This document shows, one piece after another, positions 6,991-43,164 of a DNA stretch of 43,164 nt. The stretch is from positions 1 through 43,164 of the forward strand of contig JAIOHV010000106.1 in the NCBI GenBank assembly GCA_019912885.1. The letters run 5' to 3'. The position numbers and the translations under genes were made by a program. Source of the DNA: a bacterium (GTDB taxonomy: Bacteria > Lernaellota > Lernaellaia > JACKCT01). The notes under the pieces were generated by a model that saw only the letters and a list, made by a program, of their open reading frames with translations, had not been told where the DNA came from and searched no databases. The stretch's first letter is position 1. Each line of letters opens with the position of its first letter.

Positions 6991-9900
6991 CTACGGGATG
7001 ACCGGCAGCAGGTCCGTGAAGATGCCCATGAAGTCGTTGTTCGAACCCATGATGGTCTCGTCAACGAGATACAGGCCGTAACCCGCCACGTCGAACGACG
7101 GGATCTGGATTCCGCTCATGAGCTCGCCCAGGAACGGAATGAGCAGTTCGCCGAGGATCGGCGCGACGTTCTCGAACAGCGCGTTATCCCAGTCCATGAG
7201 CGGTTCGGCGAAGACGTAAACGGTCATCGTCGGATCGTCGAAGTCCACCCAGAGGGTGTTGTCCGGGAAGGTGATCGAAAGTTCGCCGGGGATGATGATG
7301 CCGACCGCCATCTCCAGGAAGAGCGTCTCGTCGGAGCCGTCGTCGACGTACATCGACACGAGCAGGTCGCCGAGCTGGAACTCGATGGGGATGAAGCCGT
7401 CGGTTTCGGCCTGGCCGCTCGGCGGCGCCACCACGAGGACCGGCGGCAGCAACGGACGCAGTTTGATGTCCACATCGCCCGGCTTGGCAGCGTGCAGGCC
7501 CGGGAACGCGAGTTGCATGAAGACGTTGTCGGTCTCCACGACCGCGTCGAAGTTCTGCGAGATCATGCCCGTGCGGAACAGCAGATACAACGCCTGGTTG
7601 ATGAGGTCGTCACCGAGCACGACGCCGAATCCGTAGGGGTTCTGCGTGCCGGGGACGTTGGCTCCGATCTCGGTATCCGCCGGCGGAATGCCCGGGGTGT
7701 AGAGGGAGCCGCCGAAGTCGGGCACGCCGGGGATGGTGTCGGGCGAGCTGACGCCCATGTTCATCTCGATGGTGCCGCCGTCCTGATCCCACAGCACCGT
7801 TTCGATGGCGTAGGTCACACCGAACTCGGCGCCGCCGACATCAAACGAGAAGTCGGTCGGGAGCTGGTTGAGCAACTCCTCGAGCAGATCCGGCACGGTG
7901 TCGGAGAGCACGTCGTTGATGACATCTTCCATGAGATCGCTGATGTCGTCCTTGAACCAGTCCTCGAGTTCGTCGGGGAAGTTGTTGATATCAAACGAGA
8001 AGCCCTGGATGCTCATGCTGATGTTTTCGATCTCGACGGTGAAGTGGTCGTTTTCGTCCACGTAGATGAACGCGTCCGAATCGAGCCGGATCTCATCCAT
8101 GTCCACATCGCCGGAAATCGAGTAGCCGATGCCGAGAATGGTGCCGCGCACCTTGAATTCGAGGTGGATGTCGTTGACGCCGGCGACGAGCTTGATGCCG
8201 AGGCTCGGCAGAACGTCGAGCGAGAAGAACGGATCGCCGATCGTGACCTGTTGCACCTCCGCGCGCGCGCTGGCGATCGTGATGCCCCAGAATTTCACCT
8301 TTTCATCGAAGATCGGGTTCAACGAGTAGAGCAGGTTCGGAATCTGGTCGATGAGCTCGTTGAGGATCGGCATCATGAGATCGATCAACTGGTTGAACCC
8401 GCGCTCGTTCATCCGGAAGAACATCGCCGGCTGGATGAGCGCATTGTCGGGAACCTTTGAGCCGTTCATCGTGCTGACGGACGCCTTGGACGTATTGCCC
8501 GAGCCGCCCTCGGTGACCGTCAACTCCATGATGTTGAGGCCGTGCTCGAGGTTGTAGTCGTGGCTGAACTGGCACGCGTTCGGCGGGCCGGCGAGGTTTC
8601 GGACGGTACCCGGTGAATCCGAATACACGATCGTATCGTTCAGATAGTTGCAGCCGTTCACGATGCCGGAAATCAGGATGGAGTTCTGATCCACCCACAG
8701 GCCGCGTTCGGGCGTCCAGATTTCGATATCCGGCGCCGTCACGTCGATGACCTGGATGGTTTCCGTATCCGACAGGCCGCTCCACGGAGGCGCGGCGGTG
8801 CCGGTGATGTCGAAGATGCCCTGGTCGTTGAAGGTGATGTCGCCGGCCGCCGGCGTGTCGTCCTGCACCCCATTCGTCGGATTGACCGAAAACGCCGCGT
8901 CGACGGTGTCCACGATATTGCCGTACTGGTCCTTGATGACCGCCTCGGGATGCGTGAACTCGCCCTGATTCAGCACGGGGTCGGGAATGAGGATGTCGAG
9001 CCGGAACGGATCGCCCGCGAGCACCTCGACGACCTGTTCGGCGAACAGGCCCGTGCCCACCACCGTCGCGCGCACGGTGACGAAGCCCGCGCGGGTGAAG
9101 ACGAAATACGCCGGGTTGCCCTGCGTGATGGTAACGCCCCACGTGGGGGAGGTCGTCCACAGGACGTTCGCGAAAATTTCCTGATCGTCCTCGTTATACA
9201 CGGTGGCCGTGCCGGAGATCTGCTCGCCCGCCTGCGTTTGCAGCGCGGACATGTCGATCTCGATCGAGCCGGCCTGGTCCGGGTCCACCCACACGAACGC
9301 CTCGCCTTCAACGAACTCGCTGTCGAGAATCGTGGAAAGCGTGATCGTGAAGAAACCGGGCTGCGTGAACAGCACCGTCTGGTTCAGTTCGTTCACCGTC
9401 ACGCCGTTGGCCGGCAGGACGTCCCAGTCAACCGTGACCTCGTCCGAGCGATCATCGCCGGTCTCGTCGATGACGGCGTAATCCACCGTCACGAATTCGC
9501 CGGCCTCGATCTGGTTCTTGTCGAGCGTGACCTGGATGTGCGGTTCGATAAGCTCGATCGAGAAGTAGCTGTAGGCGTCGACGATGCCCTGCGGATTCGA
9601 GTCCGGGTCGACGTGGTTCGGATGCGTTCCGTAGATGCGAAGCGTGTAGTCGCCGGGATCGACATACGGAAATTCGCCGCTGACGAATCCGCCGCCGACC
9701 GTGAGGTCGCCCGTCCAGTCCGCGTACCCGGAGCCGTTATCCACAAGGACATGAATCGTGCCCGGATCGATGTTGAAATACGTCGCCTGAATGGGGATGT
9801 CGCGGTAATTGAAGATCGCACCGGGCTGCGGCTCGATGATTTCGATCTTGCCCATGTCGATGGAGAAATTGACGGAATCCGTATCGCTGCCGCCCGAACC

Positions 9901-10476
9901 GTCGAAGACGTTCGCGACCAGCGTGTGGCTGCCCGCGTCGATCGCGAAGACGCCGGTGATCTTGGTGGAAGTGACGGTCAGGTACGAGGTGATGTCGTCG
10001 CCGTCGAGGGTAACGACCGTCAACCCGACGTTGATATTCGCGACGTTCGCCTCGATATCGAAGGTGTAGCCGTCGAACTCCTGATTGTCGGCCGGCTTCA
10101 CGAACGCGACGGTGGGGAGGTCGTCATCGTCGTCGTCCGCGTCATCGTCGGAGTCGTCGTCGGAGTCATCGTCCGAGTCGTCGTCCGAATCGTCGTCCGA
10201 GTCGTCATCCGAGTCGTCATCCGAGTCGTCGTCCGAGTCGTCGTCGGCGTCGTCGTCCGAATCGTCATCGAAATCGTCGTCCGCGTCGTCGTCCGGGAAG
10301 GTGTCGTCGTCGCCGATGTCGTCATCGCCCGGAGGGGGCGGGCTAAAATCGTCGTCGTCATCGCCGACGCGAGAGCCGCCGTTGTCCTCGCCGCCGCCGC
10401 AAGAGCACGAGGCCAGCGAAAAGGCGAGCGCCAGTACAAGAAAGACCGTAAGCGCGGTCGACCGATTCCGCGTCAT
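6991..10476 (-). CDS. Large surface lipoprotein: Asp-rich tether, Ig-like domains, BPI/TULIP-like domain
   Basis: ATG 10476 follows GGGAGG. The signal peptide ends in lipobox LASC with lipidated Cys24, Ser at +2 and a second Cys at 26, so outer-membrane sorting is likely. Residues about 36-127 are an Asp-rich tract (DDDS/DDDD units). Residues about 128-660 contain several beta-sandwich Ig-like modules (for example FVKPADNQEF, IEIIEPQPGAIF, QTQAGEQISGTATV). From about residue 690 the protein resembles the two-barrel TULIP fold of BPI/LBP. An amphipathic region is followed by DVDMDEI and VEIENISMSIQG strands. A helical stretch (DDISDLMEDVIND) comes next. A second half opens GFGVVLGDDLINQALYLL and the ending is LMSGIQIPSFDVAGYGLYLV, laid out like the BPI C-terminus. 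Lipid or hydrophobic-ligand binding at the cell surface is inferred. A terminator follows the gene. Confidence 0.8.
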   Translation of the reverse strand: MTRNRSTALTVFLVLALAFSLASCSCGGGEDNGGSRVGDDDDDFSPPPPGDDDIGDDDTFPDDDADDDFDDDSDDDADDDSDDDSDDDSDDDSDDDSDDDSDDDSDDDSDDDADDDDDDLPTVAFVKPADNQEFDGYTFDIEANVANINVGLTVVTLDGDDITSYLTVTSTKITGVFAIDAGSHTLVANVFDGSGGSDTDSVNFSIDMGKIEIIEPQPGAIFNYRDIPIQATYFNIDPGTIHVLVDNGSGYADWTGDLTVGGGFVSGEFPYVDPGDYTLRIYGTHPNHVDPDSNPQGIVDAYSYFSIELIEPHIQVTLDKNQIEAGEFVTVDYAVIDETGDDRSDEVTVDWDVLPANGVTVNELNQTVLFTQPGFFTITLSTILDSEFVEGEAFVWVDPDQAGSIEIDMSALQTQAGEQISGTATVYNEDDQEIFANVLWTTSPTWGVTITQGNPAYFVFTRAGFVTVRATVVGTGLFAEQVVEVLAGDPFRLDILIPDPVLNQGEFTHPEAVIKDQYGNIVDTVDAAFSVNPTNGVQDDTPAAGDITFNDQGIFDITGTAAPPWSGLSDTETIQVIDVTAPDIEIWTPERGLWVDQNSILISGIVNGCNYLNDTIVYSDSPGTVRNLAGPPNACQFSHDYNLEHGLNIMELTVTEGGSGNTSKASVSTMNGSKVPDNALIQPAMFFRMNERGFNQLIDLMMPILNELIDQIPNLLYSLNPIFDEKVKFWGITIASARAEVQQVTIGDPFFSLDVLPSLGIKLVAGVNDIHLEFKVRGTILGIGYSISGDVDMDEIRLDSDAFIYVDENDHFTVEIENISMSIQGFSFDINNFPDELEDWFKDDISDLMEDVINDVLSDTVPDLLEELLNQLPTDFSFDVGGAEFGVTYAIETVLWDQDGGTIEMNMGVSSPDTIPGVPDFGGSLYTPGIPPADTEIGANVPGTQNPYGFGVVLGDDLINQALYLLFRTGMISQNFDAVVETDNVFMQLAFPGLHAAKPGDVDIKLRPLLPPVLVVAPPSGQAETDGFIPIEFQLGDLLVSMYVDDGSDETLFLEMAVGIIIPGELSITFPDNTLWVDFDDPTMTVYVFAEPLMDWDNALFENVAPILGELLIPFLGELMSGIQIPSFDVAGYGLYLVDETIMGSNNDFMGIFTDLLPVIP

Positions 10477-10855
10477 GTTCGGATTCCTCCCAACCCCTAA
10501 TGGCTTCCCAAATTACGCATCTTGTTCGCATTCGGGGCGAACGCAGTAAAGCGAATTTCTCAGTCGCAAATGATATCCCCTCCCGCCGCGTGGCGTCAAC
10601 GCGGCACCCACGAAAAAATGCCCCAAATTTCGGGTATTTCAACGAAAATCGTCGGGAAATTGTCACCGCCCTCGCCGGAGAAGCGGGAAAATATCCGCCG
10701 CGCGGGGGCTCCGGAGCGAACGGCATCACCGCGCTTGGCGGACCGAAATTCGTGCGTTCCGGATCACGCCATCGCCGCGAAGCCGTTGTCGCTGGCGTTT
10801 GGGACGTGTTATTGGGAACAGGAACGCTGGGGTTTTTCCATTGTGGAGGTGATTC
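10477..10855. promoter_or_regulatory. Divergent intergenic region between two lipoprotein genes
   Basis: This 379-bp gap must contain the 5' signals of both the large lipoprotein (minus) and the cupredoxin gene (plus). Shine-Dalgarno sequences are clear on both sides: GGGAGG for the minus gene, and GGAGGTGA at 10845-10852 for the plus gene. I find no convincing -35/-10 pair, and none of the dispersed repeat families. Confidence 0.4.
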
Positions 10856-11527
10856 ATGAGGCGTTTTCCCCGTGCGATTTATTTTCTCATCGCCGCGAGT
10901 GCGATCGCGATGTCGCCGTTCGCGGCGTCTTGCTCCTGCTCGGGCGACGATGACGACGACTCGGACACCGGCGATTTGCCCACCGTGGACGATGACGCGG
11001 CGGACGACGACGACACCGCGGGTGGCGACGATGACGACGCCGGCGACGACGACGATTCCGCCGGCGACGACGATGCGGGTGATGACGACGATGACGATGA
11101 CTCCGGTGACGACGACGATGACGATGACACCGGTGACGACGACGACGATCTTGACGACGACACGGGCGATGACGACACGGGCGACGACGACACCGGCGAC
11201 GACGACACCGGCGACGATGACACGGGCGACGACGACTCCGCCGTGGCTTACGATCACCTGGTCACGATCGACGGCTCCGATGTGGACATCGATCCGCTGA
11301 ACATCGACGTCGGCGATACGGTGCGTTTCCTGAACGAAGACTCGTTGACGCATCGCCTGATGAGCGGCACGCCGGGCAACCCGGACGGTGAGTTTGACAC
11401 CGGTAATCTCGGCAACGGCGATTTCTTCGACCACACCTTCGACTCGGTGGATTCGTACACGTACTATTGCTCGCTGCATTCGGGCACGATGTTCGGGTAC
11501 GTGATCAACGTGTCGGCGGTGAAATAG
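10856..11527 (+). CDS. Asp-tethered cupredoxin (blue-copper) lipoprotein
   Basis: GGAGGTGA lies just upstream of ATG 10856. The signal peptide ends AASC with lipidated Cys26, Ser27 and a second Cys28. Residues about 30-129 are almost wholly Asp with Gly, Ser, Thr and Ala spacers (DDDTGDDDTG units). The C-terminal 90 or so residues form a plastocyanin/azurin-type domain. It has a type 1 copper ligand set: His166 (in DSLTHRLMSG), Cys205, His208 and Met212 (CSLHSGTM). Cupredoxins carry single electrons between redox partners. Here the copper domain would sit on a long acidic arm away from the membrane. The redox partner is not in the window. It is convergent with the SWIM gene across about 34 bp, with no obvious terminator. 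Confidence 0.9.
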   Translation: MRRFPRAIYFLIAASAIAMSPFAASCSCSGDDDDDSDTGDLPTVDDDAADDDDTAGGDDDDAGDDDDSAGDDDAGDDDDDDDSGDDDDDDDTGDDDDDLDDDTGDDDTGDDDTGDDDTGDDDTGDDDSAVAYDHLVTIDGSDVDIDPLNIDVGDTVRFLNEDSLTHRLMSGTPGNPDGEFDTGNLGNGDFFDHTFDSVDSYTYYCSLHSGTMFGYVINVSAVK

Positions 11528-18576: not shown

Positions 18577-21051
18577 TCAGTCCGCCTCCAGGAAATCATC
18601 CCCGAATCGGACGTACCATAGGGACTGTTCCCCGCCGTATAAAAGGTGAACCATGGCACTCGCGTCCACGGTAAGATCCATGCCGCTGTTGCTGCCGACA
18701 TGACCACCCCAGTCCACCACTTTGTCGAGCCAAGTACTGTCTTGCAGAACCATTGCATGCACCTCGCAACACAATGGGTCTATCGGCACAAGGGGGGCAT
18801 CCGCGTAGGCAACGTACAGGCGCCCATCCGGTCCGAAGGCCACAGCCGTGCTTTCGACACTGATGGACTCCGTCGGGTCCGTCAGATCCTCGATGGTCCA
18901 CGACCCCTTGCTCCCGGTTGCCAACCGTCCGCCGACCCCCGTGGAGTTCCGGTAACCGTAGGTCACGTAGATCGTGCCGTCCTCGCCCATGACGGCGTCC
19001 ATGCCGAGTCCGTACTCGGTCTCTGTCGGACCGACCTCGACGTAGTGCCGTTGCCAACCCAGGGGCGTCTTCCACAGCGTCACTAGGAACCGACCGATGG
19101 AAAAGAAATTGAAGTACGGGAACGAGCCGATGACGTGCGGGGTGCCGTCCGGAGCCATCAGCAAACGGACATCTGCGTAACCGGTGACCGCAGAGAACCA
19201 GTTCCACACATCCGTGTGCCAAGTATCGCCGTCCCCCCAAGACCACGTCACCCCCAGATCACCCCAAGAGACGTCGCCGACGATCCCCGCCGCCACGACG
19301 TTCACGACATCATCCGGCGTCAGATCCACGCTGGTTTCGATCTTGTAGGCGGGGTAGCCCGGGTCGTCGGGCGCAGTTTCCACGGTGCGCTCGCGCCAGG
19401 CGCCCGTGACGTTGTCGAACAACAGGACGAGGCTGTCTGGCGCGTCGTCCTCGGATGGGTCCGCAGCGCTGATGTATCGGGCACCCGCGGAATCGAGATC
19501 GAGGCTGGGACCCTGTCCCGTCCCCACCTTCTCCACCACCCAGCGGTCGTTCTGCCGCCGCGCCGCCCAGATTTCGCCAATGTTACGCCACGTATCCTCA
19601 TCGATCGGTTGGTAGATGAAGTGCTGAAACGCGACGTCCAAGCGGTCTCCCCAAACAGCGCTGTCGGTGTGGGGATACGACAACGCAAACCCATCTTGCA
19701 TCTTTGAGCTAACCTGCCAATTCGTACCATCAAACTGCGCGAGGAAAAGCCCAACCGGTGAAGATGAAAATGCAATTTCTGCGAAGTTAGTTTCATTCGC
19801 ATGTGAAACCGAATAATCAATCAAATATGGAGGTGCCTCCATCGCCTCACCTGCCCATTGGCCGGAAATTTGATGCCAGAGTGTCAGGGCAAAATCCGAT
19901 CGGGTGACGATCTGTAATTCACCATTCAGTAAACGCACATCTATTAACCGACGAGATTGCGTCTCGATGGGAAGGAGTTCATCAACCCATCCATCATCGG
20001 TGCGATGCGTTAACCACACATTATCGTAAATAATTCCATTCTCGATCCAAGCGATGACTGGTTGACCATCGGCGTCTAGGGTCATGTCAATGTAGGGTGA
20101 CCCCCCATCGCGGGCGGTTTCCATCGTCCAACCCTCTCCCGGTGCCTTTCGCGCGTATCGAAAGACATACCCATCCGTACTAAAGTGGTGAAAGGCGTAA
20201 TGAACTGTCCCCGTATTATCCACAACCAACGCTTTATTACGATCATAACTACCGATGTTCGTCGTGCCGAACGGGTCCAGCACCTCGAATTCCCAAGCGC
20301 CGCTCTCGTTCGTCCCGTAGGAGTACCCGCCCCGAACGGCGTCCTCCAATCCCAGGTGGACGTATCCCATGTCATCCACGTCGACTACGAACTGAACCGC
20401 GCCGTTTTCCCGGTACAGAATGTAGTCGCTGATGATTTCGCGCGTCCAAGCGCCGCTCCGGTTCGTCGCGTAAACAAGCTTCGCGCCTCGCAGGTCGAGA
20501 TATAGCACATGAAGACGGTCGTCCGTGTCGATCGCCACGGCGGGCGACGACGCAAAGTACGCAAGCGTTTCTTTTGCGATTTCCTCCTCGGGCGTGACCT
20601 TGTAGTGAACGACACATCGTCCCTGTCCGGCGACCACGTGCCGGTCGCCGTTGCTCGCCAGGACAAAGGCCTCGGACGTCAGATTCGGAAATCCGCCCCA
20701 TACCCGTTGAAGAAGCAAGCCGTCCTTGTCCCAAAGCGTTTCCGAGGGATCGTCGGGCAGGGCCGTGTCATCGTCCGACTCCGTGTCATCGTCGATGGCC
20801 GAATCGTCGTCGAACCCCGTGTCGTCGTCCAGGCCCGTGTCATCGTCATCGATGGAATCGTCATCGGCGTCATCGTCGCTGGAGTTATCAACCGAGTCGT
20901 CATCATCGATGGAATCGTCGTCGAGCGCGGTGTCGTCGTCGGCCTGGCCTGCGTTTGACGAAGGGTCGCCGCAAGAGCAACCCGTCACCAAAAACACGCA
21001 AACCACCGCGATCAGTAGTAACGCAACCCTGAGGCGGCTTCTCTCGCGCAT
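18577..21051 (-). CDS. Asp-tethered lipoprotein with beta-propeller-like repeats
   Basis: I take ATG 21051 (MRERSRLRVALLL), preceded by GGAG nine bases upstream; the frame runs ten codons further to 21081. The lipobox is VTGC with lipidated Cys25, Ser26 and Cys27. Residues about 36-104 are Asp-rich (DDDS, DDDT units). The rest consists of repeats of roughly 40-60 residues, each a hydrophobic strand followed by a turn and an aromatic strand (AVAIDTDDRLHVLYLDL, VVDVDDMGYVHLGLED, ALVVDNTGTVHYAFHH, TVDASAMVHLLYGG). They resemble blades of a BNR/sialidase-like propeller. No catalytic residues are identifiable, so ligand binding at the cell surface is a guess. The coding DNA between about 19690 and 20270 is clearly richer in A+T than either side, which suggests part of the propeller has a different history. 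Confidence 0.8.
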   Translation of the reverse strand: MRERSRLRVALLLIAVVCVFLVTGCSCGDPSSNAGQADDDTALDDDSIDDDDSVDNSSDDDADDDSIDDDDTGLDDDTGFDDDSAIDDDTESDDDTALPDDPSETLWDKDGLLLQRVWGGFPNLTSEAFVLASNGDRHVVAGQGRCVVHYKVTPEEEIAKETLAYFASSPAVAIDTDDRLHVLYLDLRGAKLVYATNRSGAWTREIISDYILYRENGAVQFVVDVDDMGYVHLGLEDAVRGGYSYGTNESGAWEFEVLDPFGTTNIGSYDRNKALVVDNTGTVHYAFHHFSTDGYVFRYARKAPGEGWTMETARDGGSPYIDMTLDADGQPVIAWIENGIIYDNVWLTHRTDDGWVDELLPIETQSRRLIDVRLLNGELQIVTRSDFALTLWHQISGQWAGEAMEAPPYLIDYSVSHANETNFAEIAFSSSPVGLFLAQFDGTNWQVSSKMQDGFALSYPHTDSAVWGDRLDVAFQHFIYQPIDEDTWRNIGEIWAARRQNDRWVVEKVGTGQGPSLDLDSAGARYISAADPSEDDAPDSLVLLFDNVTGAWRERTVETAPDDPGYPAYKIETSVDLTPDDVVNVVAAGIVGDVSWGDLGVTWSWGDGDTWHTDVWNWFSAVTGYADVRLLMAPDGTPHVIGSFPYFNFFSIGRFLVTLWKTPLGWQRHYVEVGPTETEYGLGMDAVMGEDGTIYVTYGYRNSTGVGGRLATGSKGSWTIEDLTDPTESISVESTAVAFGPDGRLYVAYADAPLVPIDPLCCEVHAMVLQDSTWLDKVVDWGGHVGSNSGMDLTVDASAMVHLLYGGEQSLWYVRFGDDFLEAD

Positions 21052-21137
21052 CGAGACGCTCCAATAATGACGCGAAATCACGATAGGCTTGTCGCCCCAA
21101 GTTGTCGATGAAAAATATCTTCATCTTTCCACGCGTA

Positions 21138-31659: not shown

Positions 31660-34533
31660 TCAACAGCCGCAGCAGCCGCCGTCATCGTCGTCATCGTCGT
31701 CATCGTCATCGTCGTCGTCGTCGTCGAGCGGCGAGCCGGAGTCGTCGTCCGACGCGTCGTCATCGCCGGTGTCGTCGTCCATCGAGGTGTCGTCGTCGGC
31801 GGTATCGTCGTCGGCGTCGTCGTCCGCGGTGTCGTCATCCATCGTGTCGTCATCCGCGGTATCGTCGTCGATCGACGTATCGTCGTCGGCGGTGTCGTCG
31901 TCATCGTCGCCGGGGATCGTGGTCGTCGTGGTGGTTGTCGTGGTCGTCGTGGTCGTTGTCGTGGTGGACGGCGTGTCGGGCCATCCGCGCACGGCGATGT
32001 TGTCGAGTCCCCAATACTCCGCGGGGCCGATGCCGGTGACGTACCGGAAACGCACGTACAACGCCGGCTCGTTCGCCGCGTTCGGCAGATCGAATTCGCG
32101 TTCGCCCTCGTCGTCCAGGAAGCGGAAGGTCCGCACCACGGTCCAGTTCTGGCCGTCAGTGGAATAGGCGACGTCGCCGGGCTCCGCGAAGCCGGCACTG
32201 AAGAAATGATCGAAACGCACCGTGATATCGTGGTGCTCCGAACAGTCGATCGCGGGCGTGATCATCGCGTCATCAAAAGGCACGAGGAAGCCGGCGAATT
32301 CCTTGTCCGCGATCGCGAACGTCCCGTCCCAGAATGGCGACGTGCGCGCGCCGGGGTTGTCCGTGCGCCAGGTGTGCGCGGCGCTGCCGCCGTTTTCGAT
32401 TGTCCAGTCGGACAGGTCGCCGGTCACCGTCTCCCAGTCCTCGAAAAACAGGGTGTCCGGACCGATGGGCATGCCGAGGCGCTCCACCGTGTTCGTTTCC
32501 TCGTAACCGAACGCATCCTCGGCGCGCACGACGTAGTAGAACGGCGTGTAGTTTGCGAGGCCGATATCGATGTAAGTGGTCTGCGTCGTGGAGGCGAGCG
32601 GCGCGCCGAAGTTTTGCCCGCCCGGCGCAAGCGCGCGGTAGATGTTGTAGGTCACGTTCGTTTGATCGGCCGCCGCGCTCCAGGCAAGCGTGACGGTCGT
32701 ATCGCCGCCGGTCGCGGACGTAAGTCCGGCGAAGATCGGCGCGGCGCAGTCGATCTCGACCTCGGCGGTTTTTGTCACGTTCGTGCCGCCGTCGCCGTCG
32801 TCCGCGTCGATGTAAGTGACCGTCGCGAGGTCGCCGTGCGCGACCTGCAAAACGCCGTCCGTCGCGGGCGCTCCGGTTTCCGCGCTGATGACGCCCTCGT
32901 ACACGCCGTCCTTCACCTTGGTCAGCGTCACCGTTTCCGGTGTCGTCTCCGTGTCGCTCGTCGCTCCGACATACGCGAAGGCCGCAGTGAGGTCCGCGTC
33001 GCGCAGCGTGATATCGATGTCCTGCCCGCAGGTGACGACGGGCGTCGCGTCGACCTTGCCGTCGGAGTTGACCATCAGCGTTTGCAGGAAAAGATAGGCC
33101 TCGACCACGTCGATGCGCCCGTTGCCGAATGTGTTGTCCTCGCCGGCGTCGCCGAGATCGACGGCGGTTTCAAAGAGCGCGAACTTGATCTGTTCGGGCG
33201 TGGCGTCGGGGAAGGCGTCGCGCAACAGCACGACCGCGCCGGCGACATGCGGCGTGGCCATCGAGGTGCCCGAGAGGTTGCCGTATTGATCGCCCGGCAT
33301 CGAGGAACGCACGTCCGATCCGACGGCGGAGACCTCGGGCTTGATCGTCACGTCGTCGCAGCCCGAAGGCCCGCGGCTCGAGAATCCGGAGATCGTCGTG
33401 CCGTCCTGCAAGAGCGATCCGATCGCGAATGAATTGTACGGCGAGCTGATGCGGTCGCCCGGCGTGCGCAACGTCTTGGCGGCGGAGCCCTCGTTGCCCG
33501 CGGCGAACACGACGGTGACGCCCGCGGCTTCGGCGGCGTCGATCGCGCCCCACATCTGCGTGTCGCAGAAGGGCACCCCGTGATACAGAGGGCTGATGCC
33601 CCAGGAGTTGTTGATGACGTCCGGCACGTCGTCCATCGTCGCCGGATTGCCGTCCGGGTCGGCGAACCACTGGAACGCGAGGACGGAGTCGTCGATCGTC
33701 TGCTGGATGCTCACCCGGTCGATCGTGCCGGCCGCGATCCATTTCGCGCCCGGCGCCATGCCGATCTGATTGCCCGCGCCGTCGTCGCCGACGATGGTGC
33801 CGAGCGTGTGCGTTCCGTGGTAGCCGGCATCGAACGGGAAGGTCGTGTTGGTGACCGGATCGAACCATGCCTCGCCTGGATCCACACCCGCGTCGAGGCC
33901 GCGCCAACGGTCGCCGAACGCGATGTGATTGCCGTCCGCTCCGGTGTCGCAGTCGCCCGCGATCGCGGTGGACCCGTCGATGCCAAGCGCCCACAGCTCC
34001 GGCGCGCGCGTGATGGAAATGCCGTTTTCGATCGCGGCGATCAGGTGGCCGTCGTCAATCACCGGCTCGCCGATCGGCGCGATGTTTTCGATGGGATACG
34101 CGAAGGCGATCTCGCTTACGTCATCGCGCCAGGCGAGCTGCTGGATGAACGCGGGCTTCGCCCACACGGTGACGGCGTTCATGATCCAGTACGGCCGGAA
34201 CTTCGCGACGTGGCCCTCGCGTTCGCCGTCGGCCAGGTGCGCCCGAAGATCGGACTGCGTCGCGGCGGCGGTCTCCTGAAGCGCGGTGATGACCTCGTAG
34301 TGCCGGCGGGAAAGGCTTGCGCCGCGCGCCGTGAGTTCGTCGACCATCGCCTGCAAATCGACGCGCCCAGTCAGGATGACGAAGGCGCGCAGATACGCGT
34401 CGGGCGCGGCGTTTTCGATCGCCTGCCCGAGGGTGGGGTCAATCTTGTTGTCGGCCGTCGCGCCGGCAAAGGCCGTCCCGGCGCAAATAACGACAACGCA
34501 CACAAAAACGAACGCCCGCGATAGCGAACGCAT
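31660..34533 (-). CDS. Secreted subtilisin-like protease with Thr/Asp-rich tail ending in a Cys cluster
   Basis: ATG 34533 (MRSLSRAFVF) follows GGAGGG; the frame upstream is not needed. A signal peptide (cleavage after TAFA) precedes an I9-like propeptide (AYLRAFVILTGRVDLQ). The S8 catalytic domain has Asp196 (CDTGADGNH), His239 (HGTH) and Ser424 (SGTSMATPH), with the Asn in FAAGNEG, so it should be active. C-terminal parts are an FN3-like module (TLAWSAAADQTNVTYNIYRA) and a jelly-roll-like domain beginning FFEDWETVTGDLSDW and ending GLDNIAVRGWP. A run of about 17 Thr near residue 853 comes next, then about 80 mostly Asp residues, then GGCCGC at the very end. No transmembrane segment or known sorting signal is present in the tail. 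Confidence 0.9.
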   Translation of the reverse strand: MRSLSRAFVFVCVVVICAGTAFAGATADNKIDPTLGQAIENAAPDAYLRAFVILTGRVDLQAMVDELTARGASLSRRHYEVITALQETAAATQSDLRAHLADGEREGHVAKFRPYWIMNAVTVWAKPAFIQQLAWRDDVSEIAFAYPIENIAPIGEPVIDDGHLIAAIENGISITRAPELWALGIDGSTAIAGDCDTGADGNHIAFGDRWRGLDAGVDPGEAWFDPVTNTTFPFDAGYHGTHTLGTIVGDDGAGNQIGMAPGAKWIAAGTIDRVSIQQTIDDSVLAFQWFADPDGNPATMDDVPDVINNSWGISPLYHGVPFCDTQMWGAIDAAEAAGVTVVFAAGNEGSAAKTLRTPGDRISSPYNSFAIGSLLQDGTTISGFSSRGPSGCDDVTIKPEVSAVGSDVRSSMPGDQYGNLSGTSMATPHVAGAVVLLRDAFPDATPEQIKFALFETAVDLGDAGEDNTFGNGRIDVVEAYLFLQTLMVNSDGKVDATPVVTCGQDIDITLRDADLTAAFAYVGATSDTETTPETVTLTKVKDGVYEGVISAETGAPATDGVLQVAHGDLATVTYIDADDGDGGTNVTKTAEVEIDCAAPIFAGLTSATGGDTTVTLAWSAAADQTNVTYNIYRALAPGGQNFGAPLASTTQTTYIDIGLANYTPFYYVVRAEDAFGYEETNTVERLGMPIGPDTLFFEDWETVTGDLSDWTIENGGSAAHTWRTDNPGARTSPFWDGTFAIADKEFAGFLVPFDDAMITPAIDCSEHHDITVRFDHFFSAGFAEPGDVAYSTDGQNWTVVRTFRFLDDEGEREFDLPNAANEPALYVRFRYVTGIGPAEYWGLDNIAVRGWPDTPSTTTTTTTTTTTTTTTTIPGDDDDDTADDDTSIDDDTADDDTMDDDTADDDADDDTADDDTSMDDDTGDDDASDDDSGSPLDDDDDDDDDDDDDDDGGCCGC

Positions 34534-34588
34534 GGAGCCCTCCGTTCGTGTCCCGTTCAAGGGAATCACCCAGGAAAAACGCGGGGGG

Positions 34589-34617
34589 ATGTTAGGCGCT
34601 TTGCGGGGCGCAAGCAA
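34589..34617 (-). promoter_or_regulatory. Possible promoter of the subtilase gene
   Basis: On the minus strand TTGCTT (34612-34617), a 17-base spacer, and TAACAT (34589-34594). This puts the likely transcript start about 50 bases before ATG 34533. The match is moderate. Confidence 0.35.
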
Positions 34618-34728
34618 CAACGGGGACGATCGTTTTTTCGGCGAGAGCGCCACGATTTCCCGCCAGGCAGGCGACATCTCCCGGATTCTTGTTTTTCAAT
34701 TGGCCGTAGGCGCGCGCCGATCGACCAA

Positions 34729-42680: not shown

Positions 42681-42709
42681 ATTGTTGGCGTTTGCGTGAT
42701 CGTCTATCA
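42681..42709 (+). promoter_or_regulatory. Possible promoter of the right-edge lipoprotein
   Basis: TTGTTG (42681-42686), a 17-base spacer, and TATCAT (42704-42709), about 47 bases before ATG 42756. Confidence 0.45.
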
Positions 42710-42755
42710 TGTCACTCTGCATTTCCGTCTGTCCGGGGCTTCGCGGAGTCGTCGC

Positions 42756-43164
42756 ATGCGTATGTTTGTGCGCGGATATTTCCGGTCAGTCCTTGTTTTC
42801 ATATTCGTTTTTTTTGGGATTGCCGTCTCGGGTTGCGAATGTTTTGCCATCGTCGGAAGCGAGGATGGCCCCTTTTCAAATGACAACGACCACAACAGCG
42901 GTTGCGGTAAGTCGACCGGTGCAAAATGTGTCTATCCCGATGATTACTTTGACGACGACACGGCCGACGATGACACGGCAGACGACGATACGGCAGACGA
43001 CGATACGTTGCCTGACGACGATACCTTGCCTGACGACGATACGTTCGATGACGACACCGGCACCGACGACGACACGCTGCCGGACGACGACACGACCGAC
43101 GATGACACGTTGCCGGACGACGATACGGGCACCGACGACGACACCCTCCCGGACGACGACACGG
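42756..43164 (+). CDS. Asp-tethered lipoprotein, 3'-truncated by the window edge
   Basis: The frame has no stop before the right edge. ATG 42756 is preceded by GCGGAG. The N-terminus MRMFVRGYFRSVLVF is basic, then very hydrophobic, ending in lipobox VSGC with lipidated Cys27, Glu28 and Cys29. Residues 30-65 contain three further cysteines in about 35 residues (Cys near 52 and 60 among them), unlike the other family members. From about residue 67 the sequence is all DDDT units with LP, TG, TA or FD spacers to the end of the window. The functional domain lies beyond the window. It is the fifth Asp-rich surface protein in 43 kb. Confidence 0.85.
   Translation, partial: MRMFVRGYFRSVLVFIFVFFGIAVSGCECFAIVGSEDGPFSNDNDHNSGCGKSTGAKCVYPDDYFDDDTADDDTADDDTADDDTLPDDDTLPDDDTFDDDTGTDDDTLPDDDTTDDDTLPDDDTGTDDDTLPDDDT

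Follow-up and report, generated by a model that had tools for sequence, protein, structure and literature searches.

Low-complexity, Asp-rich stalks of great and variable length are familiar from Gram-positive staphylococci, in which SD stalks standing before LPXTG lead from the anchor to the functional domain. MYXO-CTERM proteins provide a second point of reference. In their signature, a helix and an Arg cluster come after a generic GCGC motif (PMC11980579), and in M. xanthus the signal is cleaved by myxosortase (PMC11980579). The authors of that work propose that cleavage takes place on the distal side of a Cys that bears lipid, added by an acyltransferase for which Lgt is the foremost candidate; export would follow through type II secretion (PMC11980579).

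The window – the whole stretch of 43,164 nucleotides that was analysed – contains five Asp tracts, each within a few bases of where the original prediction had put it (the subtilase tract is longer, through a preceding Thr run). Two layouts are distinguished below: N-type, with the tract behind an N-terminal lipobox Cys, and C-type, with the tract ahead of a C-terminal Cys-Gly-Cys. The features are:

10120..10362, minus strand: N-type Asp tract of the 'BPI-like' lipoprotein (gene 6991-10476), 81 aa, 69% Asp
10399..10407, minus strand: lipobox Cys and CxC (CSC) of the 'BPI-like' lipoprotein, translation FSLASCSCGGG
10931..10939, plus strand: lipobox Cys and CxC (CSC) of the cupredoxin lipoprotein (gene 10856-11527), translation PFAASCSCSGD
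10940..11239, plus strand: N-type Asp tract of the cupredoxin lipoprotein, 100 aa, 62% Asp
20737..20940, minus strand: N-type Asp tract of the putative propeller lipoprotein (gene 18577-21081), 68 aa, 51% Asp
20971..20979, minus strand: lipobox Cys and CxC (CSC) of the putative propeller lipoprotein, translation VTGCSCGDP
31660..34677, minus strand: C-type subtilase gene (signal peptide I, PF00082, choice-of-anchor J domain)
31663..31674, minus strand: terminal Cys-Cys-Gly-Cys of the subtilase, stop codon (31660-31662) directly after
31681..31977, minus strand: C-type Thr run and Asp tract of the subtilase, 99 aa, C-terminal
42834..42842, plus strand: lipobox Cys and CxC (CEC) of the right-edge lipoprotein (gene 42696-43163), translation VSGCECFA
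42951..43163, plus strand: N-type Asp tract of the right-edge lipoprotein, at least 71 aa, interrupted by the contig end

Asp makes up 51-69% of the window tracts over 68-100 residues, in units of the DDDS, DDDT, DDDA and DDDTG kind, and all four N-type lipoproteins carry, on translation, a CxC at the lipidated end. The subtilase, which had been taken for the same arrangement, is actually of a mirror-image C-terminal class ending in CCGC: its order is signal peptide I, subtilase domain, choice-of-anchor J, Thr run, Asp tract and CCGC-stop, the final residues reading DDDGGCCGC-stop. Searches of Pfam and NCBIfam confirmed the subtilase and cupredoxin identities (the latter by PF00127, above cut-off), returned only sub-threshold matches for the supposed propeller and found no family for the protein called BPI-like. 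The right-edge tract (42951-43163) lies at a contig end, and contigs C29 and C54 likewise start in or near such tracts; because contig ends fall there, the repeats probably break the assembly. At 10085-10549 (plus strand) and similar places, other frames of the Asp tracts read as long runs of Ser or of Val/Ile, and automatic annotation could call these spurious ORFs.

Asp codons are mixed within the tracts (GAC:GAT is 44:12 in one of them), and units identical as protein show a DNA tandem match of only ~84%, poorer than the protein match. Together these data indicate that the tract is maintained as protein rather than being the outcome of fresh slippage; nucleotide slippage alone, as the origin of the tracts, is ruled out by the mixed codons.

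The search was extended to seven class genomes (G000-G006, the host being G000: 4.82 Mb, 230 contigs, 99% complete) and to 53 more distant genomes. The pattern DDDxDDDxDDD matched 357 times in the host genome against 0 in a reversed-pattern control, and 154 to 811 times in each of the six other class genomes, the class genomes not being independent observations; any match at all occurred in only 4 of the 53 distant genomes, at no more than 8 each. Asp tracts belong, beyond chance, to a class-wide system. The N-type pattern CxCGDDD gave 82, 33, 59, 1, 3, 5 and 0 matches in G000 to G006 (control 0-1). The pattern DDxxCGC-stop gave 27, 21, 15, 2, 20, 30 and 0 (control 0 in every genome), the G002 counts here and above being lower bounds because tract genes in that genome appear broken. 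By the patterns used, G006 has few C-type proteins. Several tract genes in G002 (L319-L338) look frameshifted, probably through assembly errors. On a wider scale, DDDxCCGC-stop was looked for in 84,980 species and matched 7 times, with only one of the matches in an Asp-tract protein (FR_14, matching G002); with a single such protein in 84,980 species, the idea that this end is widespread in other phyla was rejected.

The estimate of at least five proteins was therefore much too small: the host genome shows no fewer than 82 matches to N-terminal CxCGDDD and no fewer than 54 proteins with a (C/G)CGC-stop end, and the host makes well over 100 exported proteins with an Asp spacer adjoining a cysteine pair at either terminus. 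The idea of a reusable tether beside a membrane anchor, attached to unrelated cargo, is well supported; a restriction of tracts to a few genes, which had been named as its refutation, is contradicted by their genome-wide and class-wide distribution.

Sequence stretches around the matches, several hundred kb in all, provided a catalogue of 212 tract or CGC proteins, which is a sample drawn from those stretches. In most N-type proteins the tract begins 2-5 residues behind the lipid Cys of the lipobox, and in most C-type proteins it stops 4-8 residues short of the C-terminus; composition is equal in both (68% Asp). Position -1 of the lipobox is G, S or A in the 55 catalogued N-type proteins, with T once, and C-type N-termini are mostly ordinary signal peptides (signal peptide I). 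The two architectures exclude each other almost completely. In a tract-only sample, a lipobox only was found in 31 proteins, signal peptide I plus a C-terminal Cys in 12, neither in one and both in none (P=6e-10); in the whole catalogue, whose counts are partly ascertained by the search patterns themselves, the corresponding numbers are 54, 102, 3 and 2. One of the two double-anchor proteins, L277, has a false lipobox. The other, L305, is the exception that carries both a credible lipobox and CCGC, and, of the 104 C-type proteins whose N-terminus was called, the only one to do so. CxC was found in 18 of 24 tract lipoproteins versus 0 of 21 other lipoproteins under the same rule (P=8e-8; 3 of the 21 carry short Asp runs that the rule does not count). 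With CxC in N-type lipoproteins and CGC terminal in C-type proteins, a dicysteine usually marks the anchor end in both layouts. One lipoprotein (L067, 5765-6718, plus strand) has an Asp tract at each end and lacks a C-terminal Cys.

Such placement bears on a rival explanation of the tracts, namely neutral low-complexity expansion devoid of function. Low complexity itself, and the drift of the tracts in length and sequence, accord with it. Against this, an export signal was called in 47 of the 49 tract ORFs of the tract-only sample (the remaining two are cut at the 5' end), and the tracts – strictly beside the anchor, class-wide, of mixed codons and persistent in homologs – make neutral expansion very improbable.

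Comparison of homologs shows that cargo is interchangeable between the layouts. The N-type proteins L074 and L062 align with the C-type proteins L283, L280, L276 and L310 at 29-39% over ~380-445 aa (E down to 2e-82), and N-type L082 with C-type L325 at 51% over 218 aa; L058 and L083 provide further homologous cargo across the two. N-type cargo is diverse, comprising penicillin amidase, phospholipases, sulfatase-modifying-factor-like domains, multiheme cytochromes and lipases. Across genomes, 18 homologous pairs keep the cargo and have the tract rewritten. CGC is nonetheless kept at the ends of both members in 17 of the 18, the exception being L343 (GGCS), while CCGC and GCGC replace one another between homologs (L057/L314, L273/L329, L346/L080, L269/L301); the window subtilase, too, has a homolog in G002 (L327, 59%) that retains the CCGC end. 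The original prediction had counted free variation of the tracts against itself. Their sequence and length are indeed rewritten between homologs; what persists is their presence, position and composition, the behaviour to be expected from a spacer.

The same data bear on the proposal that the tract is a stiff, calcium-loaded arm keeping cargo off the outer membrane. Its very high charge and its place adjoining the anchor would suit such an arm. The regular spacing of calcium sites is absent: neither DxDxDG nor glycine-rich nonapeptide spacing was found, the window tracts consisting of DDDx(x) units only, and calcium repeats were rejected on this ground (the distinction from dockerin and thrombospondin type 3 repeats had already been drawn in the original prediction). 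Stiffness fares no better, as the tract lacks secondary structure in an AlphaFold model built from a single sequence, at a pLDDT of ~50, and tract sequence changes freely between homologs. We consider the arm, of which neither attribute found support, improbable. The model, being of low confidence and from a single sequence, suggests that the tract may be flexible. Calcium binding and stiffness are unnecessary to the account preferred here, in which the tract is a disordered spacer.

A further question concerns the C-type chain end. The pattern DDxxCCGC matched 21 times in the host genome (control 0), with the stop codon directly after in 21 of 21, and CCGC-stop was found at 40 places among the TGYTGYNNNTGYTRR matches listed for that genome; in the cases inspected the linker ahead of it is Asp-rich, or Thr/Ser-rich in L110. 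Over six genomes 132 CGC-ending proteins were catalogued, usually with an Asp tract just ahead of the end; 75 have Cys and 50 have Gly at position -4, and Asp predominates at -9 to -7. CCGC is common in the family to which the window belongs, GCGC in family f3. Paralogous CGC-stop genes stand in tandem in the host (L266 and L263; contigs C100 and C72); C100 has three side by side, their tails almost identical. In G004, a series of small GCGC proteins occupies 223050-228530 of contig C38 (L347). Some C-type cargo matches models named as myxosortase-, rhombosortase- or T9SS-dependent, or as PEP-CTERM- or LPXTG-anchored; these represent families that elsewhere have C-terminal anchors.

Several features recall MYXO-CTERM (TIGR03901): signal peptide I, a disordered linker, GCGC or CC near the C-terminus, predicted Cys lipidation, and dozens of unrelated surface proteins per genome. 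The Cys signature after a low-complexity linker is present, whereas the chain stops at CGC; the helix and Arg tail are missing, and the CGC-stop form is not MYXO-CTERM itself. A helix hidden by frameshift, read-through or a recoded stop was rejected, a helix plus Arg tail being found in any frame downstream of 0 of 128 CGC-stop genes by a detector that recognises 8 of 10 real tails. Full tripartite tails (D-tract, GCGC, TM, RR) do occur in the class (L162, L225, L227, L233), and a tripartite subtilase of G003 (L229) aligns with the host CCGC-stop protein L088 at 36% over 444 aa and with the window subtilase at 30%. The most fitting description of the CGC-stop form is a MYXO-CTERM-like end that is mature as encoded. 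MrtX (NF040593) exceeds its 180-bit cut-off in none of the seven class genomes; sub-threshold scores are 112 bits in G003 (the best) and 42 bits in the host, with none in G001. In G001 (99% complete), PF02517 (CPBP/CAAX protease) gave no match at E <= 0.001, and this genome has 21 DDxxCGC-stop matches, up to 19 CCGC-stop places and MYXO-CTERM-like tails. Since CGC-stop proteins occur there without a CPBP match, dependence of this form on myxosortase is unlikely.

The cysteines could instead form a disulfide or metal-binding cap, dimerising C-type proteins or linking them to a surface partner, with the tract a solubilising or cation-binding tail. Three close cysteines lacking a helix fit this explanation, Asp tracts could bind divalent cations, and the CxC of N-type lipoproteins could likewise be a thiol partner. 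Yet two strongly negative partners would be expected to repel each other, and a cap leaves unexplained the near-exclusive replacement of the lipobox by the tail, the same cargo with either end, and the kinship with MYXO-CTERM tails and the tripartite homolog; we think it unlikely.

Alternatively, the tract might be the export or sorting address – a very long counterpart of the Bacteroidota lipoprotein export signal (LES), read by an outer-membrane exporter – and the cysteine ends only anchor. At least two acidic residues do occur shortly after the lipid Cys, as in LES, with D common at +3 to +8 in N-type proteins and the acidic run beginning at +3 to +5; and LES motifs such as SDDDD, placed after the lipid Cys, are enough to bring a protein to the surface (PMC5080379). 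In LES a Lys or polar residue stands at a fixed position directly before the acidic pair; in N-type proteins it is G or S that comes before the run. As a signal, though, LES is short and bound to its position, while the Asp tract is long, is also C-terminal, and is replaced in the C-type protein L110 by a Thr/Ser linker. An address of this kind is given little credence here.

If the C-terminal Cys is lipidated, an acyltransferase is required, for which the Lgt paralogs would be candidates. Three Lgt-family genes were found in all seven class genomes (partly fragmented in G002 and G003), and three matches in only 1 of the 53 others, most of which have one. Clades A, B and C each cover families f1 and f3, and A and B also G003, in which no clade C copy was found and the third copy is canonical-like. 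The host genes (L380, L381, L382) have non-canonical GCF/ACF..GCC motifs; FYGG and GCF..GCC are common to clades A and B, and clade C, aligned to the E. coli Lgt structure 5azb, is altered at three positions. These are, we presume, the equivalents of E. coli Lgt H103, N146 and E151. Because of the non-canonical motifs and the three changed positions, activity of the host copies is uncertain, and altered substrate use is plausible. The host clade C gene lies ~0.6 kb downstream of a C-type protein ending in CGCGC, an adjacency that may be chance given about one tract gene per 30 kb. The extra copies may also simply serve the many ordinary lipoproteins.

The reading that we hold to be rather probable is that the Asp tract is a disordered, polyanionic, membrane-proximal spacer used with two anchors at opposite ends. 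The N-type module consists of signal peptide II, a lipidated Cys (usually in CxCG), Asp tract and cargo, and the C-type module of signal peptide I, cargo, Asp tract and a chain end of (C/G)-Cys-Gly-Cys, most likely an envelope anchor too. What the sequences establish is this architecture, the mutual exclusion of the two ends, the exact C-terminal position of the CGC, its conservation, the equal tract composition and the exchange of cargo between layouts. The latter may correspond to the mature MYXO-CTERM end (GCGC) encoded directly, minus the helix and Arg cluster that myxosortase removes; its terminal cysteines would carry lipid added by an Lgt paralog, and the cargo would reach the cell surface, with the tract acting as a spacer or surface-retention element. 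How a membrane acyltransferase would gain access to the C-terminal Cys of a helix-less chain is a difficulty that counts against lipidation. The fuller proposal – sortase-free and helix-free C-terminal lipoproteins, whose (C/G)CGC end is mature from the start and receives its lipid, once exported, from a dedicated Lgt paralog, interchangeable with N-terminal lipoproteins and sharing with them a common Asp spacer – is offered as a possibility, and we would sooner doubt it than assert it. Given short tails and three Lgt-family genes per class genome, the lipidation question is directly testable. A confirmed C-terminal anchor would offer a minimal tag for C-terminal protein display, and a function for low-complexity tracts usually discounted as noise.

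Among known systems, dockerin, thrombospondin type 3 and RTX repeats are likewise Asp-rich and extracellular, but have regularly spaced motifs that fold on calcium. In Bacteroidota LES (PMC5080379), too, surface lipoproteins have an acidic run directly behind the lipidated Cys; that signal comprises a few residues at strict positions, whereas the Asp tracts run to tens of residues, are also C-terminal and are coupled to CxC. Unlike staphylococcal SD stalks, the tracts are built of DDDx units, stand next to Cys anchors and come from a lineage rich in lipoproteins. The 'lipo-invert' family of NCBIfam (NF058595) embodies the concept of an inverted, C-terminal lipoprotein-like anchor, but is a domain of 113 positions compared with the short CGC end; it is not among 25 of the 27 families listed for 51 C-type tails scanned, and its only matches, sub-threshold, are to signal peptides of two N-type proteins. 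The literature searched described no C-terminal lipoprotein of this kind, and as an anchor signal, a bare Cys-Gly-Cys terminus without a membrane helix appears to be new. The lineage would provide a natural, stripped-down MYXO-CTERM-like signal: four residues, with no helix and no protease step, on dozens of proteins per genome.
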